Shown here piece by piece: positions 21,827 to 30,759 of a DNA stretch of 57,007 bases. This DNA comes from an uncultured Bacteroidales bacterium. Its GTDB lineage: Bacteria > Bacteroidota > Bacteroidia > Bacteroidales > UBA932. Under the pieces are notes generated by a model that was given only the letters and a program-made list of their open reading frames with translations, made no database searches and was not told the DNA's origin. Location: positions 1 through 57,007 of the forward strand of contig CASFSL010000037.1 in NCBI GenBank assembly GCA_949297365.1, given 5' to 3'. The position numbers and the translations under genes were made by a program. The first letter of the stretch is position 1; every line of letters starts with the position of its first letter.

Positions 21827-22555
21827 TTATTGTTCATATAGGTAAAACTCCTTGGTAAGTGCTGCGTGTTCCGTGCTGCGGTGTCCGTCCGCGTCGGTAA
21901 GTACAAGTGAGTCTTCTACCGGGGCGGGAACGGGACTTTTGCCGAAAGAGGCTAGGATTCTGCGGATTCCGGAACCGGGTCTGGAATAGACTCTGGTGAG
22001 CCGGTGCAGGTGAAGTCTGCTTCTGTCCGCCAGCCGCAGGATGGATCTTTCGGACTCGGAGGGGACGATCAGACTAAAGACCCCTGAGTCGGTGAGCAGG
22101 CCGGCGGAGAGCAGCAGCAATTCGTCGTGCGGAAGGCCGCCCGTATGTCTGGCGGTGCAGCGGCGGCTGTCCGGATTGGTCAGTGTGTTGTCGTAAAACG
22201 GAGGGTTGGAGACTATCAGGCCGAAGCGTTCTGATGCAGCCTCCGGGCCGTGACAGTAGTTCTGAAGACTGGTGTGGATGGCTCTGAGCCGTCCGCTCCA
22301 GGGCGAGCCGGCGAAGTTCTCCCTTGCCTGCAAGACCGCGTCCCTGTCGCAGTCGATGCCTGTGATACGGGCCTGGGGAAATCTCTGGGCCAGCATAAGG
22401 GCTATCAGGCCGCTTCCGGTGCCGATATCCAGTATGTCCCCGGGACGGTCCTGACCGGCCCAGGCGCCCAGCAGGACTCCGTCAGTGCCCACTTTCATGG
22501 CGCACCGGTCGTGCCATACTGTGAACTGTCTGAACTTGAAAAAAGGTACTCCCAT
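21827..22555 (-). CDS. tRNA1(Val) A37 N6-methyltransferase (TrmN6-like)
   Basis: The 242-residue protein is a Rossmann-fold SAM methyltransferase. The opening MGVPFFKFRQFTVWHDRCAMKVGTDGVLLGAW is characteristic of the TrmN6/YfiC family. Motif I is DILDIGTGSGLIALMLA near residue 45, and the N6-adenine catalytic motif NPPF lies in VSNPPFYDNTL near residue 123. The start at 22555 overlaps the stop of the TonB-receptor gene. An open frame continues upstream to 23050, but that part only reads through the receptor gene out of frame. The specific target (A37 of tRNA-Val) is taken from the family. Confidence 0.88.
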   Translation of the reverse strand: MGVPFFKFRQFTVWHDRCAMKVGTDGVLLGAWAGQDRPGDILDIGTGSGLIALMLAQRFPQARITGIDCDRDAVLQARENFAGSPWSGRLRAIHTSLQNYCHGPEAASERFGLIVSNPPFYDNTLTNPDSRRCTARHTGGLPHDELLLLSAGLLTDSGVFSLIVPSESERSILRLADRSRLHLHRLTRVYSRPGSGIRRILASFGKSPVPAPVEDSLVLTDADGHRSTEHAALTKEFYLYEQ

Positions 22556-25053
22556 CACATCATTCCTCCCGTGCTTTGCTGCCCGGTGCTGATGCCCGAG
22601 GAGCCGCCTACGCGGGAAGACTCCTCGAAGCTGCCGACATTGCGTCTGCGCGTATTGGTCGCAGTACCGAAACGCCAGCTGAAGGACAGGGTGACTTTCT
22701 GTATGTTCATACGCTGGTGGATGCTGTAGGTCAGCACATCGCCGGTGTACGAGGTGATGTCGCTCCGGAACGAGCGGAGGATGTCCTGTACGTTGAGGGC
22801 GATGGTGCCCCGGCCGTCCCAGAGGTTCTTCTTGATACCTCCGAAGAGCATGTACATCGGGCGGATATTCATGTAGCCGATGGTCATGTTGCCGGAGCCG
22901 AAGCCTCCGACCTCTATCTTCCATTCCTTCGGCAGCAGGAATGTCAGGTTGCCGTAGAAGCTCTGGAGGAAGGATCCGTCGCTGTAGCCGCCGGAGGTAC
23001 TTGTGTTGCCGTTGTAGGCGGCGAAATAGTTGGCCGAGAAGTTCAGCCACTTGGTGATCGGCAGTTCAGATACGGACAGGGCCGCTCCGGCTATCTCCTG
23101 TGTGCCGAAATTCTCCCAGATGAGGCGCTGCTCACCGTTGTCGGGATTGACCTCGGGGTGCTGCATGATCAGGTTGGAGTTGTGCTGGTACATCAGGCTC
23201 AGGTTGAGATGCTGGCCGTAGCCGACGGTCAGGGACACCTGGTCGGAGAACTGCGGGTCAAGATTGGGGTCTCCCTCGGTATAGGAGTTGGCGGACATGT
23301 AGGAGCGGAACGGGTTGAGCTGGCTGTATCCGGGCCGGCTGATACGGCGGGTGTAGGAGGCTGCCAGCCGCCACTTCTGGGTGGGCATGTAGCTGACAAA
23401 TGCAGTTGGGAAGAGATTGAAGTAGCTCTTGACGCTCTGCTCTCCGGCACTGCGCCAGTCGCCCCGGGCGTAGGTGTACTCACCTCTCAGGCCTATCTTC
23501 ACCGACCATTTCGGGCCGAAGCTCTTGGCTGCGGATATGTAGGCGGCGGCTATCTGCTCGTCGTACATGAAGAGGTTGGAAAGGCTGTCGCTGTAAAGCC
23601 AGGAGTTGCCGAGAAAGTCCTCGCGGACGGAGTTGTTGTCGGTAATGGTGCGGGACCATTTGAGACCGGCCTCCAGCAGTCCCGTCTGCCAGAACACCTG
23701 CTGGTAATCGGCCTTGACCGACCATATCTGCAGCTTCTGCGAGGCGTTCTGTCGGAAAATGTTGGAGTCCAGCTGTATCATGGACTGAATACCGGGGACG
23801 GGTATGTCGCTCTGGCTGCTCCTGTTCAGTATGTCAAAGTACGAGTAGTCGGCGTTGACGGTCAGTTCCTGGGCCTTGGCCTTGTCGAAAGTGTGGGTGT
23901 AGTTGAGGTTGGCCGAGATACCGTTGAAGCAGTCGCTGTTGTCTATGTCGCTTTCCAGCCGGCCCATCAGATCGTCTCCGAGCAGGTGTTCCGTGAAATT
24001 GTCCCCGTAAGTGCCGGTGCCGCTGCTGCGGAAAGTGCCGTTGACGATTACACCCAGGATATTGCGCTCGTTGATGTACCAGTCGTTGCCGGCCCGGAAC
24101 ATCTGGTTGAGGCTGCTGTTGAGCAGGTTGGACCGGCTGGACATGGTGATGTCATAGTTCTCGCCGTAGAGGGAGCGGGAGTCCAGGGTCATGTTCATGT
24201 CATCGTAGCGGGCGCTGTAGGTCAGGAAGGTGTTGGTCTTTTTCCCACGGTAACTGAGATTGACCGAACCGTCGGCCGCCTGATTGTACCGGTCGAAATA
24301 CATTCCGCCGTAGCCCAGATTGACCGAACCGTTGAGGCCCTGGGTAAAATTCTTCTTGGTCACGATGTTGATGATGCCTCCTCCGCCGGCCGCGTCGTAT
24401 TTGGAGGACGGATGGGCCATGATCTCTATCCGGTCAATCGTGGTGCCGTCGGTGGAGTTGAGCAGGACCTCCAGCTCCTTGCCGGAGAGGTTGGACGGGC
24501 GGCCGTCAAGCCATACCGCTACGGTAGAGCCGTTGAGCTTGACGTTGCCGTCGAAGTCGATGGTCACGCCGGGAGCCTTGCGCAGCAGGTCCGTGCCGTT
24601 GCTGCCCTCGGTGGAGACTGCATCAGAGACGTTCATGACGATCTTGTCCAGCTTCTGCTCTATGACCGGACGGCGGGCGGAGACCACCACTGCGTCCAGC
24701 ATCTCAGCGTCTGGCTCGATGCTGACAGTCCCGATGTCGGAGCCGTCGGACGGATTGACACGGATGACAGCGTCATTGTATCCGATGAAGGATATTTTCA
24801 TGATGTATTCCCTTGCGGTCAGACCGTTGAAAGCGAATCTGCCCGTGGAGTCGGTGGTGGTGCCGTCCACAAACGTGCTGTCCGGCAGGATCAGTGCCAC
24901 TGTCGCAAACTCCACCGGCGCCGATGTGGCGGCGTCCGTCACTCTTCCGGTCAATGTCCCGGTGTGTTCATGCTGCTGCCCGGCCAGGGCGGCTGCCGCA
25001 GTGGCCAGAATCATGCATACTGCCGCTGTCGCTGTAAGAATATGGTGTCTCAT
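22555..25053 (-). CDS. TonB-dependent receptor-like outer membrane beta-barrel protein
   Basis: Taken from the ATG at 25053, the protein has 832 residues. It begins with a signal peptide (MRHHILTATAAVCMILATAAAALAG), then a carboxypeptidase-regulatory-like domain (LTGRVTDAATSAPVEFATVALI ... LTAREYIMKISFIGYND), a plug domain (SDAVSTEGSNGTDLLRKAPGVTIDFDGNVKLNG ... DRIEIMAHPSSKYDAAGGGGIINIVTKK) and a long barrel. The pattern matches the outer membrane beta-barrel (OMP_b-brl_3) receptors of Bacteroidota. The tail is unusually Gly/Ser-rich (VGGSSGISTGQQSTGG). Its ATG immediately follows the 10-bp repeat. It is followed by TrmN6 with stop/start overlap. The ligand is unknown. Confidence 0.88.
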   Translation of the reverse strand: MRHHILTATAAVCMILATAAAALAGQQHEHTGTLTGRVTDAATSAPVEFATVALILPDSTFVDGTTTDSTGRFAFNGLTAREYIMKISFIGYNDAVIRVNPSDGSDIGTVSIEPDAEMLDAVVVSARRPVIEQKLDKIVMNVSDAVSTEGSNGTDLLRKAPGVTIDFDGNVKLNGSTVAVWLDGRPSNLSGKELEVLLNSTDGTTIDRIEIMAHPSSKYDAAGGGGIINIVTKKNFTQGLNGSVNLGYGGMYFDRYNQAADGSVNLSYRGKKTNTFLTYSARYDDMNMTLDSRSLYGENYDITMSSRSNLLNSSLNQMFRAGNDWYINERNILGVIVNGTFRSSGTGTYGDNFTEHLLGDDLMGRLESDIDNSDCFNGISANLNYTHTFDKAKAQELTVNADYSYFDILNRSSQSDIPVPGIQSMIQLDSNIFRQNASQKLQIWSVKADYQQVFWQTGLLEAGLKWSRTITDNNSVREDFLGNSWLYSDSLSNLFMYDEQIAAAYISAAKSFGPKWSVKIGLRGEYTYARGDWRSAGEQSVKSYFNLFPTAFVSYMPTQKWRLAASYTRRISRPGYSQLNPFRSYMSANSYTEGDPNLDPQFSDQVSLTVGYGQHLNLSLMYQHNSNLIMQHPEVNPDNGEQRLIWENFGTQEIAGAALSVSELPITKWLNFSANYFAAYNGNTSTSGGYSDGSFLQSFYGNLTFLLPKEWKIEVGGFGSGNMTIGYMNIRPMYMLFGGIKKNLWDGRGTIALNVQDILRSFRSDITSYTGDVLTYSIHQRMNIQKVTLSFSWRFGTATNTRRRNVGSFEESSRVGGSSGISTGQQSTGGMM

Positions 25054-25530
25054 TGCTGTTGTCTGCTGTTGTCTGCTGTTGTCTGCTGTTGTCTGCTGTT
25101 GTCTGCTGTTGTCTGCTGTTGTCTGCTGTTGTCTGCTGTTGTCTGCTGTTGTCTGCTGTTGTCTGCTGTGCTTCCGGTAAAGGGAGACGATATCCTCAAT
25201 TGTGATGCCGAGGATGTCCATCTTGCGGAAGACCTCTTTCAGTTCCTCGGAGATGAAAGATCCGCGCTGTCTCTCCCGGATGATGCCTCTCGCCCCCGGG
25301 CTGACGAAGTACCCGATGCCGCGCTTGTTGTGGATGATGCCGTCCTGGGACAGCTCGTCGTATGAGCGGGCCACGGTGTTGGGATTGACCTCGAGGGAGA
25401 CTCCGCATTCCCTTACTGACGGTATGCGGTCACCCTCTGGCCACTGACCTGTCAGTATCCGCTCGCATATCGAGTCGGCTATCTGCAGGTATATCGGTTT
25501 GTGCTGGTCAAATTCCATAGTCGCTTGCAT
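22555..25530 (-). CDS. In-frame GntR regulator - 10-aa repeat - TonB receptor fusion frame
   Basis: As read here, one uninterrupted frame of 991 codons joins two unrelated genes. It runs from a YtrA-type GntR regulator (residues 1 to about 120), through three and a half copies of the decapeptide SRQQQTTADN, to a complete outer-membrane receptor starting at Met160 with its own signal peptide. The junction is a 10-bp tandem repeat; because 10 is not a multiple of 3, each copy gained or lost changes the frame. A cytoplasmic regulator fused ahead of an export signal is not a plausible outer-membrane protein, so the receptor is probably made from its own ATG at 25053. I treat this as a phase-variable junction; the two modules are listed separately. 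An assembly error in repeat count cannot be excluded from sequence alone. Confidence 0.6.
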   Translation of the reverse strand: MQATMEFDQHKPIYLQIADSICERILTGQWPEGDRIPSVRECGVSLEVNPNTVARSYDELSQDGIIHNKRGIGYFVSPGARGIIRERQRGSFISEELKEVFRKMDILGITIEDIVSLYRKHSRQQQTTADNSRQQQTTADNSRQQQTTADNSRQQQTTAMRHHILTATAAVCMILATAAAALAGQQHEHTGTLTGRVTDAATSAPVEFATVALILPDSTFVDGTTTDSTGRFAFNGLTAREYIMKISFIGYNDAVIRVNPSDGSDIGTVSIEPDAEMLDAVVVSARRPVIEQKLDKIVMNVSDAVSTEGSNGTDLLRKAPGVTIDFDGNVKLNGSTVAVWLDGRPSNLSGKELEVLLNSTDGTTIDRIEIMAHPSSKYDAAGGGGIINIVTKKNFTQGLNGSVNLGYGGMYFDRYNQAADGSVNLSYRGKKTNTFLTYSARYDDMNMTLDSRSLYGENYDITMSSRSNLLNSSLNQMFRAGNDWYINERNILGVIVNGTFRSSGTGTYGDNFTEHLLGDDLMGRLESDIDNSDCFNGISANLNYTHTFDKAKAQELTVNADYSYFDILNRSSQSDIPVPGIQSMIQLDSNIFRQNASQKLQIWSVKADYQQVFWQTGLLEAGLKWSRTITDNNSVREDFLGNSWLYSDSLSNLFMYDEQIAAAYISAAKSFGPKWSVKIGLRGEYTYARGDWRSAGEQSVKSYFNLFPTAFVSYMPTQKWRLAASYTRRISRPGYSQLNPFRSYMSANSYTEGDPNLDPQFSDQVSLTVGYGQHLNLSLMYQHNSNLIMQHPEVNPDNGEQRLIWENFGTQEIAGAALSVSELPITKWLNFSANYFAAYNGNTSTSGGYSDGSFLQSFYGNLTFLLPKEWKIEVGGFGSGNMTIGYMNIRPMYMLFGGIKKNLWDGRGTIALNVQDILRSFRSDITSYTGDVLTYSIHQRMNIQKVTLSFSWRFGTATNTRRRNVGSFEESSRVGGSSGISTGQQSTGGMM
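25051..25530 (-). CDS. GntR-family (YtrA-type) transcriptional regulator, C-terminus set by repeat
   Basis: The first 120 residues form a winged helix-turn-helix of the GntR family (KPIYLQIADSICERILTGQWPEGDRIPSVRECGVSLEVNPNTVARSYDELSQDGIIHNKRGIGYFV) and the short helical YtrA-type tail (SEELKEVFRKMDILGITIEDIVSLYRK). Regulators of this subfamily repress nearby ABC-transporter genes. It lies after the ATPase and permease genes. An alternative start is the ATG at 25518. The natural end is near LYRKHS, after which the repeat supplies variable sequence; in the present copy number there is no stop before the receptor. A YtrA-like operator is found at the operon promoter. Confidence 0.86.
25054..25169. 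repeat. 10-bp tandem repeat (about 11.5 copies) at gene junction
   Basis: The unit GTCTGCTGTT is repeated without mismatch ten times from 25061 to 25160, with a partial copy on each side. On the coding (minus) strand it reads AACAGCAGAC and contains no stop codon in any frame, since each frame cycles through the same decapeptide (SRQQQTTADN). Perfect identity points to recent expansion and active slippage. The span from the last regulator-specific codon to the receptor ATG is exactly 117 nt (39 codons). Confidence 0.97.
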
Positions 25531-25542
25531 TTTACTGAGACC

Positions 25543-26388
25543 TTAGTACTGGATCCTGCGGATACGGAAATAGGTGAGTACCCAGCAGGCAATTGGGAAG
25601 ATGTATGTGCTGAACACCATGGCAGCTTTGTACAGGGTTATCAGCCACTGGTAGATGCGCTCCGGGTCAATGTCGGGATTGTTCTGCAGATTGTCGAAGA
25701 AGCAGATGGCGGAAATGACGGAAATTACTACTGCTATTACCCAGATACCCAGAAGAGTAAGCAGAGTATAGCCTATCTTGTGCCGGCGGAAGAGCATATT
25801 GAGCAGGACAAATGCGCTTTGGGAGAGAGCCAGACCGACGATGGGCGGTACGGCCAATGGAATCATGGAGTCGAACATCCTGTTGGCGAAGTTGAGGGCC
25901 ATAGGGTCGGTATTTAGCTGCAGGAAGCCTGCTGTTATTGTATTCAGAAAGTCCTTGGAGGAGAACATGCAGCCCCAGATGCTGCCGGAGTAGCTGGCTT
26001 CAAACGGCATGAGGGTGAGCAGGGAGTCGAGGCTCATCAGCAGGACTGTGGAGAGCAAGGGGAAGATGACCGAGCAGATGACCAGCATACTGATGCACTT
26101 CTCGAGGGTCGATGAAGGAGAGACGGCGTAGAAGACACCTTCCATGCGGCGGTTTTCGTTCTTGTAGAGGAAGAAGGGTGCCAGGCAGCCTATGATGCTG
26201 AGGATTGTCGCGGCTGTGACTGCACGGGCTACGGTGGAGACTGGCTCACCGTCGATGAGATTAAGGGCCCAGATGGCAAGGTAGATCATGAGGATGATGC
26301 CGATGCTGGTCAGGATGATCATGTATTTTTCCTGAAGCTCCTTGTAGATGGTCAGGCCCTGCCTGCGTATGTTGAATGTTGCGTTCAT
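25543..26388 (-). CDS. ABC transporter permease-like membrane protein
   Basis: The 281-residue protein has about six membrane helices, including IILTSIGIILMIYLAIWAL, AVTAATILSIIGCLAPFFLY, LVICSVIFPLLSTVLLMSL, VPPIVGLALSQSAFVLLNML, LLTLLGIWVIAVVISVISAI and MVFSTYIFPIACWVLTYF. It has no ATPase motif. Directly following an ATPase gene and preceding a YtrA-type regulator, it is most likely the membrane half of an ABC-2-type exporter or membrane-stress system. The start is the ATG at 26388; a TTG at 26409 is seven codons upstream. The gene lies 12 bp before gntR. Confidence 0.82.
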   Translation of the reverse strand: MNATFNIRRQGLTIYKELQEKYMIILTSIGIILMIYLAIWALNLIDGEPVSTVARAVTAATILSIIGCLAPFFLYKNENRRMEGVFYAVSPSSTLEKCISMLVICSVIFPLLSTVLLMSLDSLLTLMPFEASYSGSIWGCMFSSKDFLNTITAGFLQLNTDPMALNFANRMFDSMIPLAVPPIVGLALSQSAFVLLNMLFRRHKIGYTLLTLLGIWVIAVVISVISAICFFDNLQNNPDIDPERIYQWLITLYKAAMVFSTYIFPIACWVLTYFRIRRIQY

Positions 26389-26421
26389 GGTGTGTACGTA
26401 TTTAGTCAAGTGTGAATGTGT

Positions 26422-27267
26422 CTATTTGCTGAAAAGAGTCTTGAATGTCTCCTTGTTCTTGAGGGCCGCGTTGAAAAGGGCTTCGAGGTTGACTCTCGAG
26501 TCGGCCTCATCGCGGTTGGGAAGTACCTGGTAGTATCCGTTCAGGCCGCTCTCGCTCCAGTAGGCCTCGGGGCTGAGTGTCGGGGCGGTGGTAAACAGCA
26601 GCTTTTTGCTGATATCCTCTACGGATGCGTTGAGGATCATGCCTTCGCGGTCCAGGATGACTATCGGGTCTATGAGGTTCTCCAGGTCGCGTACCTGATG
26701 GGTGGAGATGACGATGACCCGGTCTTCGGTGGCACATTCGGAAATGACGCGGCGCAGGGTGGTCTTCGAGGGAATGTCCAGGCCGTTGGAAGGCTCGTCC
26801 ATCAGCAGCACCCTGGTATTGAGGGCCAGGGCAAACGAGATCAGGGCCTTTTTCTGCTGTCCCTGCGAGAGCCGGTCGAAGCGGCTTGAGGCATCCACTT
26901 CGAAAGTCCGGCACAGCCTCTCGAACATGGCGTTGTCGTAACCCGGATAGAGCAGGGAATTGCTCTGCGCGAACCGCCTGACGGGGATGGGAGGGGCGAT
27001 GAAGATCTCGGGGATGAAGTACAGGTCCTTGAGCATTTCGGGATTGCGCGAGGATGATCTGATGCCCAGCACGGAGCAGTCTCCGCTCTTGGGCCGCAGC
27101 AGTCCGCTGATGATGCGCAGCAGCGTGGTCTTTCCCACGCCGTTCTCTCCGAGCAGGCCGTAGATCCTGCCGGCCTCGAGACTCATGGACAGGTTCTCAA
27201 ACACCAGGTGTTTTCTGTAGCTGAATCTCAGATTCTCGATTCTTACTGTCGGTTCATTCTTTTCCAT
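26422..27267 (-). CDS. ABC transporter ATP-binding protein
   Basis: The 281-residue ATPase has Walker A GENGVGKT near residue 42, the signature LSQGQQKK near residue 133, Walker B VLLMDEPSNGLD near residue 155 and the switch His in STHQ near residue 190. It resembles the short ATPases of YtrB/CcmA-type export systems that are paired with GntR regulators. It is the first gene of the operon and is preceded by a 232-nt leader that is strongly purine-rich on the transcribed strand. The substrate is unknown. Confidence 0.92.
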   Translation of the reverse strand: MEKNEPTVRIENLRFSYRKHLVFENLSMSLEAGRIYGLLGENGVGKTTLLRIISGLLRPKSGDCSVLGIRSSSRNPEMLKDLYFIPEIFIAPPIPVRRFAQSNSLLYPGYDNAMFERLCRTFEVDASSRFDRLSQGQQKKALISFALALNTRVLLMDEPSNGLDIPSKTTLRRVISECATEDRVIVISTHQVRDLENLIDPIVILDREGMILNASVEDISKKLLFTTAPTLSPEAYWSESGLNGYYQVLPNRDEADSRVNLEALFNAALKNKETFKTLFSK

Positions 27268-27284
27268 AACATTTACTTTTATGC

Positions 27285-27480
27285 TTTATCGTTTAACTTC
27301 AAATCTTTTCTTTCCGCCTTTCCCGCCTCCAGTTCCCATATGCTTCTCTTGTCCGCTTCTGCTTCGCCCTCATCCGTCGGCACTTTCTCTGTGCTGCCTT
27401 CATCCGTCCCTTGGCGTCTCCATCCCGCCTTCATCCATCCTTCAGCTCCTCTGTGCTTCCGTCCCGCCGTTTCTTTAGAT
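27285..27480 (-). other. Purine-rich repetitive 5' leader of the ABC operon
   Basis: The plus strand here is almost entirely C and T, so the minus-strand leader RNA is purine-rich. On that strand GGATGAAGGC or GGATGAGGGC occurs three times and AGCACAGAG twice, in a loose direct-repeat pattern. I see no convincing gene in either strand. Confidence 0.5.
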
Positions 27481-27504
27481 AGTGTATTAGTTATCTAGTA
27501 CACT
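27481..27504. promoter_or_regulatory. YtrA-type operator AGTGTA-N12-TACACT
   Basis: Perfect 6-bp outer arms AGTGTA and TACACT enclose 12 bp that are themselves largely symmetric. YtrA-family GntR repressors are known to bind inverted repeats with AGTGTA/TACACT half-sites. It sits at the predicted start of the ABC/GntR operon, directly after the -7 box, so binding would block initiation. The binding protein is inferred to be the GntR product of this operon. Confidence 0.72.
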
Positions 27505-27505
27505 G

Positions 27506-27536
27506 CAAAAGTAGGCAAAATTTCTGTAGATGCAAA
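27506..27536 (-). promoter_or_regulatory. Promoter of ABC/GntR/TonB operon
   Basis: The minus strand has -33 TTTG (27533-27536), 19 nt, then -7 TACTTTTG (27506-27513), an excellent match to the Bacteroidota consensus in both boxes and spacing. Predicted start is near 27500, inside the AGTGTA-N12-TACACT operator. Confidence 0.75.
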
Positions 27537-30727: not shown

Positions 30728-30759
30728 CAAATATAAACTGATTTATTTTATAAACCAAA
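30728..30759 (-). promoter_or_regulatory. Promoter of membrane protein / winged-helix unit
   Basis: The minus strand has -33 TTTG (30756-30759), 20 nt, then -7 TATATTTG (30728-30735), a near-ideal Bacteroidota promoter. The leader to the ATG at 30646 is about 75 nt. Confidence 0.7.

Follow-up and report, generated by a model that had tools for sequence, protein, structure and literature searches.

A perfect 10-bp tandem array on contig CASFSL010000037.1 of an uncultured Bacteroidales bacterium joins the end of a gene for a YtrA-type GntR regulator to the start codon of a gene for a TonB-type outer-membrane receptor. The contig, a stretch of 57,007 nucleotides that is called the window here, belongs to an assembly of 2,278,032 bases (2.28 Mb) in 51 contigs that is 95% complete. 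With little more than even confidence, we regard the array as a variable element, grown in length where a probable autoregulator gene meets the receptor gene in an ATGA junction, at which slippage by units would shift the two genes among three states.

The tandem array and the three frames of the junction

The genes concerned lie on the minus strand (22555-27267) in the order ATP-binding cassette (ABC) ATPase, membrane protein, regulator and receptor. The conserved part of the regulator gene comprises 121 codons (25168..25530, minus strand) and the receptor gene 832 codons plus a stop (22555..25053, minus strand). Tandem Repeats Finder (TRF) defined the array between them (25054..25169, minus strand) as 11.6 copies of the sense unit ACAGCAGACA with a period of 10 and a 100% match, and together with Pfam it bears out the regulator-to-ATG link described in an earlier first-pass annotation of this DNA. 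The array spans 25169-25054, beginning inside regulator codon 121 and ending at the base directly before the receptor ATG; the spacer to the ATG is 114 nt when counted from codon 121 and 117 nt, the length that had been given, when counted from codon 120. The repeat sits at the 3' end of the regulator coding sequence, and its unit length of 10 bp is not a multiple of three. As T is absent from the unit on the sense strand, no frame through the array can contain a stop, as the first-pass annotation had also claimed.

Recomputation of the frames showed that the regulator and receptor genes form a single 991-codon frame at the present length. One unit fewer would give a regulator of 156 amino acids (aa), the TGA of which (25052-25050) overlaps the receptor ATG (25053-25051) in an ATGA motif (25050..25053, minus strand), an overlap that is also found in nine of 15 related loci. 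One unit more would give a product of 190 aa that includes 28 out-of-frame codons. The fused and ATGA states had been deduced correctly before, and so had the 28 extra codons of the third state; its stop, which had been placed near 24966, lies at 24970-24968 on the minus strand.

The tandem unit occurs at a single place in the whole 2.28-Mb assembly. Array frequency was surveyed in 20 stretches of this genome (344,818 bases in all), in the window and in the 15 related loci, using a script that reports perfect arrays only (period 4-24, at least 3 copies and at least 20 nt, homopolymers, di- and trinucleotides excluded). Besides the window array, the script found two others: one of 12 bp x 3.2, which lies in the genome sample, and one of the ACAGCAGACA unit in a related locus (L014). 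TRF at looser settings returned 26 rows in the genome sample, all of them less perfect or of longer period. A chance origin of the array was considered and rejected in view of its 11.6 perfect copies, its single genomic place and its rarity in this survey.

RNA folding predicts that the array is 68-77% unpaired and that the receptor ATG is unpaired at 0.67-0.68 with 2, 3, 4, 10, 11 or 12 units and at 0.59 with 1 unit. The array could be pictured as a rheostat, an unstructured, T-free leader that raises initiation of the receptor with a graded effect of copy number and no frame switch. The high unpaired fraction and the lack of U in the unit agree with such a leader. No copy-number-dependent access to the receptor start was predicted beyond two units, however, and the array lies within a translated frame; we consider a rheostat very unlikely.

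The junction in related genomes

Related loci were collected by a contig scan with the regulator, limited to the best 80 of 160 relatives. The closest group among them (L011-L025) consists of 15 loci from 14 assemblies, L023 and L024 being from the same isolate, with 80-99% regulator identity; seven of these loci are labelled Candidatus Coprenecus (Bacteroidales). When the junction states were read off their sequences, the receptor gene was found directly after the regulator gene in all 15 loci, and the distance between the regulator stop and the receptor ATG ranged from -4 to +13 nt: nine loci (L011-L015 and L022-L025) have the ATGA overlap, and the stop lies 9-13 nt before the ATG in six (L016-L021). 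Fused genes or a stop beyond ATGA were found in none of the 15, the window alone being fused. The conserved closeness of the regulator stop and the receptor start suggests, as far as the sequences indicate, a handover of ribosomes between the two genes. At the junction of L021 (L021:3419-3456), an 18-bp stretch is imperfectly duplicated (2.1 copies), which may be a further slight change in length.

Copy number differs between species: the ACAGCAGACA unit is present in 11.6 copies in the window, 3.7 in L014 and 1.6 in L011 (the last counted by eye), both relatives being in the ATGA state. In L014, the flank before the array is 2 nt shorter, and this and the 3.7 copies combine so that ATGA is retained. 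L011, which shares 94.8% identity with the window over 7,163 aligned bases and 93.8% over 4,856 bases mostly further along, is taken as a different species from the window genome. These homologues do not share an equal spacer with an invariant repeat, the pattern that the first-pass annotation had set against its own proposal when it called for copy numbers to be compared. The tandem 20-mer was found in two of 199 genomes of the family, namely the window's and that of L014. Copy-number variation is observed between species, and the array may also vary inside one strain.

In a wider search of the order, 93 of 295 genomes gave a total of 99 regulator matches. The open frame of the window is the longest of these, at 995 codons; the second longest has 271 codons, so that none of the other 98 comes near it. 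All 19 genomes of the genus have a regulator match, and the next longest open frame there is 179 codons. In four of them (G005, G006, G015 and G018), the best regulator match is only 46-50% identical, and no receptor hit was found within about 1.5 kb downstream of it. The loci of the regulator scan outside the closest group (L026-L090) gave no downstream receptor hit. In further sets of loci, a receptor hit lies about 106 nt downstream in the same-family locus L114, and weak receptor hits lie 0.8-1.0 kb downstream in L128 and L132.

The locus is mosaic between species. Along window positions 25501-27300, compared in steps of 150 bases, the identity of L013 is 99.3-100% with L011 and 98.6-100% with L012; this near-identity covers the ABC and permease genes, although these species differ elsewhere. 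At 24900-24751, the window is 62% identical to L011 and 94.7% identical to L014. The pattern reflects recombination or, in part, chimeric assembly, and recombination, beyond slippage alone, may therefore have moved array alleles.

Such assembly effects also bear on the array itself, as the count of 11.6 units might be an artefact of assembly or of a population consensus, with the strain mostly in another frame. Short-read assembly would come close to its limit with an array of 116 nt, the window belongs to a 51-contig assembly, and the long blocks of near-identity among L011, L012 and L013 could partly be chimeric. However, the array lies whole within a single contig, between unique flanks and without a mismatch, and a separate assembly, that of L014, has 3.7 copies of the same unit. 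An artefact is, in our judgement, quite unlikely.

The regulator and the receptor

YtrA-type regulators are small, at about 120-130 aa, because the GntR winged helix is followed by no more than a short helical C-terminus. In the regulator of the window, Pfam places a GntR domain at residues 14-76 (6.7e-12); its relatives in the PDB include 3ic7, 3tqn, 3neu and 4r1h, and the eight best of them are 113-134 aa long. Its size and PDB relatives, like the operon in which it lies, fit the YtrA type. In an AlphaFold2 (AF2) model, residues 11-120 reach block means of 87-97 in the predicted local distance difference test (pLDDT), whereas the tail, modelled as a helix of low confidence, reaches 61-66; the sequence past codon 121 is not conserved across relatives. 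By this model, the regulator domain should fold in all three junction states.

In the joined frame, Pfam recognized the GntR domain followed by CarboxypepD_reg and an OMP_b-brl_3 barrel, with a plug match slightly under the Pfam cut-off. The N-terminus of the receptor looks like a signal peptide when judged by eye, without a predictor. The receptor gene is intact, and the ratio of non-synonymous to synonymous substitution rates (dN/dS) is 0.22 against L011 and 0.08-0.24 against five others, six of the 15 relatives having been compared; by these sequence comparisons, it is under purifying selection. The fused state would therefore be recent, transient or tolerated.

In a neutral explanation, the array would be a mere passenger with no part in switching: the length of the regulator tail would not matter, and translation of the receptor would begin at its own ATG whatever the frame. 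The tail beyond codon 121 is unconserved and modelled with low confidence, the exact overlap is dispensable in the six relatives with a stop 9-13 nt before the ATG, and the accessibility of the ATG is nearly independent of copy number. Free drift of the junction is at odds, however, with the lack of any fused gene pair or stop past ATGA among the 15 relatives, and comparable perfect arrays are rare in the genome sample. We regard neutral expansion as possible but rather unlikely.

Behind the receptor gene follows a gene for a methyltransferase small domain (PF05175), and the stop of the former overlaps the start of the latter in a TGATG (window 22553-22557). Among ten relatives examined, this overlap is shared with L011, L013 and L025, is TAATG in L012 and is absent in the other six; coupling may, to judge from this overlap, extend downstream of the receptor into the methyltransferase-domain gene. 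A long plus-strand frame opposite the receptor (22576-25365) was taken as a shadow frame.

The operon and its predicted control

The operon begins with the ABC transporter ATPase gene (26422..27267, minus strand; Pfam ABC_tran, 1.1e-20), which is followed by a membrane protein gene (25543..26409, minus strand). The membrane protein has no match in Pfam or NCBIfam and is a candidate ABC permease partner by position. Both genes precede the regulator gene in the window and in 14 of the 15 relatives, the 15th locus ending early.

Upstream of the ABC gene lies a candidate promoter of the Bacteroidota type, TTTG-N19-TACTTTTG (27506..27536, minus strand). The promoter is followed by AGTGTACTAGATAACTAATACACT, with the operator core at 27503-27482. 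The predicted operator is the palindrome GTGTACTAGATAACTAATACAC (27482..27503, minus strand), which consists of AGTGTA-N12-TACACT with flanking bases and has two perfect arms. At up to three mismatches, the expected count of the core pattern in the window is 0.01, and at up to two mismatches, the operator is the sole site in its own assembly. When 500 bases before the ABC gene were checked in relatives, all 14 that have the region proved to contain the operator, its 12 arm bases differing at 0-2 positions, and 13 of these 14 the promoter pattern; among more distant loci treated in the same way, 13 of 64 have an operator at up to two mismatches. YtrA of Bacillus subtilis binds AGTGTA-13bp-TACACT before its own operon (PMC8060467), so that the spacing in the window is N12 as against N13. 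Because the operator precedes the operon, is conserved in relatives and is single in the genome, the regulator is likely to repress the whole operon to which it belongs, with the receptor gene, through this predicted site.

A wider regulon was considered and rejected, since the genome contains one further operator-like site at three mismatches, compared with three for a reversed control pattern. Five assemblies of Saprospiraceae (L058, L061, L062, L065 and L068) likewise have perfect AGTGTA-N12-TACACT arms in front of their ABC-GntR genes, and the N12 spacing may therefore reach beyond this genus. The distance from operator to ATG is -237 in the window, L012 and L013, -94 in L011, -73 in L014 and -38 in L025, and the extra stretch within window 27268-27480 appears by eye to be G-rich and quasi-repetitive. 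The operator core of L011 (L011:3171-3192) is the exact reverse complement of that of the window, with the promoter on the unchanged side, as if an imperfect palindrome had flipped. Tandem arrays of 105 bp (also 118 bp in L018) in 3.2-3.5 copies are present upstream of the operon in L018:1877-2915, L020:1-334 and L021:1-351.

A second promoter for the receptor was sought, and no TTTG-N17-23-TANNTTTG match was found on the minus strand of 22555-27267; the next match to the promoter pattern on this strand is at 30728-30759, with none other below 30728. Around the junction (24850-25600), neither a sigma-70-like site (mean 0.4 in shuffles) nor a terminator-like site (mean 0.6 in shuffles) was found. 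The latter result concerns attenuation by a leader peptide, in which the frame decides whether a ribosome covers a terminator, as in the pil1 operon of Streptococcus gallolyticus. That operon has a frame-shifting repeat (GCAGA) upstream of surface genes and follows the same logic (PMC3894217). With no terminator-like site at the junction, this reading is disfavoured and appears extremely improbable for the window.

Proposed switch

In the switch that we favour, slipped-strand gain or loss of a single unit would move the junction among the three states, and handover to the receptor would depend on copy number modulo 3 through translational coupling. In the ATGA state, the regulator, carrying a polar tail, would end on the receptor ATG, where ribosomes would restart and the receptor would be ON. 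In the fused state, which is that of this assembly, ribosomes would read through without termination at the junction; the signal peptide would become internal, after about 160 residues, which would lower receptor export, and part of the regulator would be made as a fusion. In the third state, the regulator would end 28 codons past the divergence of the frames, uncoupled from the receptor. Since the regulator probably represses its own operon, the array would shift receptor output and possibly, as we infer, operon repression together.

A further version is, in our view, unlikely. The fused form might be inserted in the inner membrane via its internal signal peptide and cleaved there, so that the receptor would be delivered and the autoregulator tethered or destroyed. 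The count modulo 3 would then specify three heritable regulator states (free with a short tail, free with a long tail and tethered), tuning both repression and receptor output.

Several observations weigh against a three-state switch. The long array is carried by one genome only, and that from a fragmented (51-contig) assembly; a search for a second genome of this species found none. The ATGA state of both short-array relatives could be due to chance (1 in 3 each). As four of the 19 genomes of the genus gave only a more distant regulator, with no receptor hit behind it in the next 1.5 kb or so, the gene pair is not genus-wide. The near-constant accessibility of the start across copy numbers implies that the receptor may initiate independently in every state. 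If the fused state is the main one in this strain, the receptor may even be dispensable there.

Comparison with known repeat systems

The first-pass annotation had regarded switching between separate and fused products by a 3' repeat as new; such switching has already been predicted from sequence for HCAN_0660/0661 (PMC2823697) and described for NGK_1211/NGK_1212 (PMC5320596). In Helicobacter canadensis, C-terminal phase variation was proposed; a change in the repeat could join HCAN_0660 to HCAN_0661, and separate-versus-joint translation was called perhaps unprecedented (PMC2823697). For NGK_1211 of Neisseria gonorrhoeae, two frames lead to different C-termini and the third fuses the gene with NGK_1212; the repeat length varies between strains, and a pglB2 fusion in N. 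meningitidis is cited (PMC5320596). The window resembles these cases in that a non-triplet repeat lies near the 3' end of a gene and one frame fuses the next gene, the three C-termini giving products of 156, 190 and 991 aa. However, HCAN_0660 and NGK_1211 involve homopolymers and membrane or hypothetical proteins, whereas the window combines 11.6 x 10 bp, a DNA-binding regulator, a receptor with a signal-peptide-like start, an ATGA and a Bacteroidales host; furthermore, the NGK_1211 repeat differs between strains, whereas array variation in the case of the window was observed only between species.

Similar partial likenesses exist in other bacteria. Microsatellite indels fuse gmhA-gmhB and Rv0192A-Rv0192 in Mycobacterium tuberculosis/bovis (PMC1501019), where neighbours are joined as here, but by very short homopolymers that differ between sequenced genomes. 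In the S. gallolyticus pil1 switch, as in the window, a non-triplet repeat in an upstream frame fixes the point, with respect to the following gene, at which translation ends, but it acts on a transcription terminator (PMC3894217). TonB-dependent uptake is likewise switched by repeats in Neisseria HpuAB and HmbR; these repeats lie within the receptors' own reading frames, whereas that of the window lies behind a regulator gene (PMC3786947, PMC3352162). B. subtilis YtrA is, as proposed here, a GntR negative regulator of its own ABC operon with AGTGTA/TACACT arms, but the window operon continues into an outer-membrane receptor gene (PMC8060467).

As far as the literature was searched, three elements are new: the lineage, the junction by ATGA and the pairing, within one operon, of a regulator that binds DNA with a receptor that is exported. 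Among the matches listed from open-licence PMC literature, mostly judged by title and the start of the abstract, no earlier report of a GntR-TonB repeat-switch arrangement was found. To our knowledge, no such repeat is present in the B. subtilis ytr operon, a point on which no search was made.

If the array slips in nature, a gut commensal would alter an uptake receptor, and with it the regulator that governs the receptor's operon, by one small step in the DNA. If true, this would bring switching by 3' repeats into the Bacteroidales and into a feedback loop of gene regulation.

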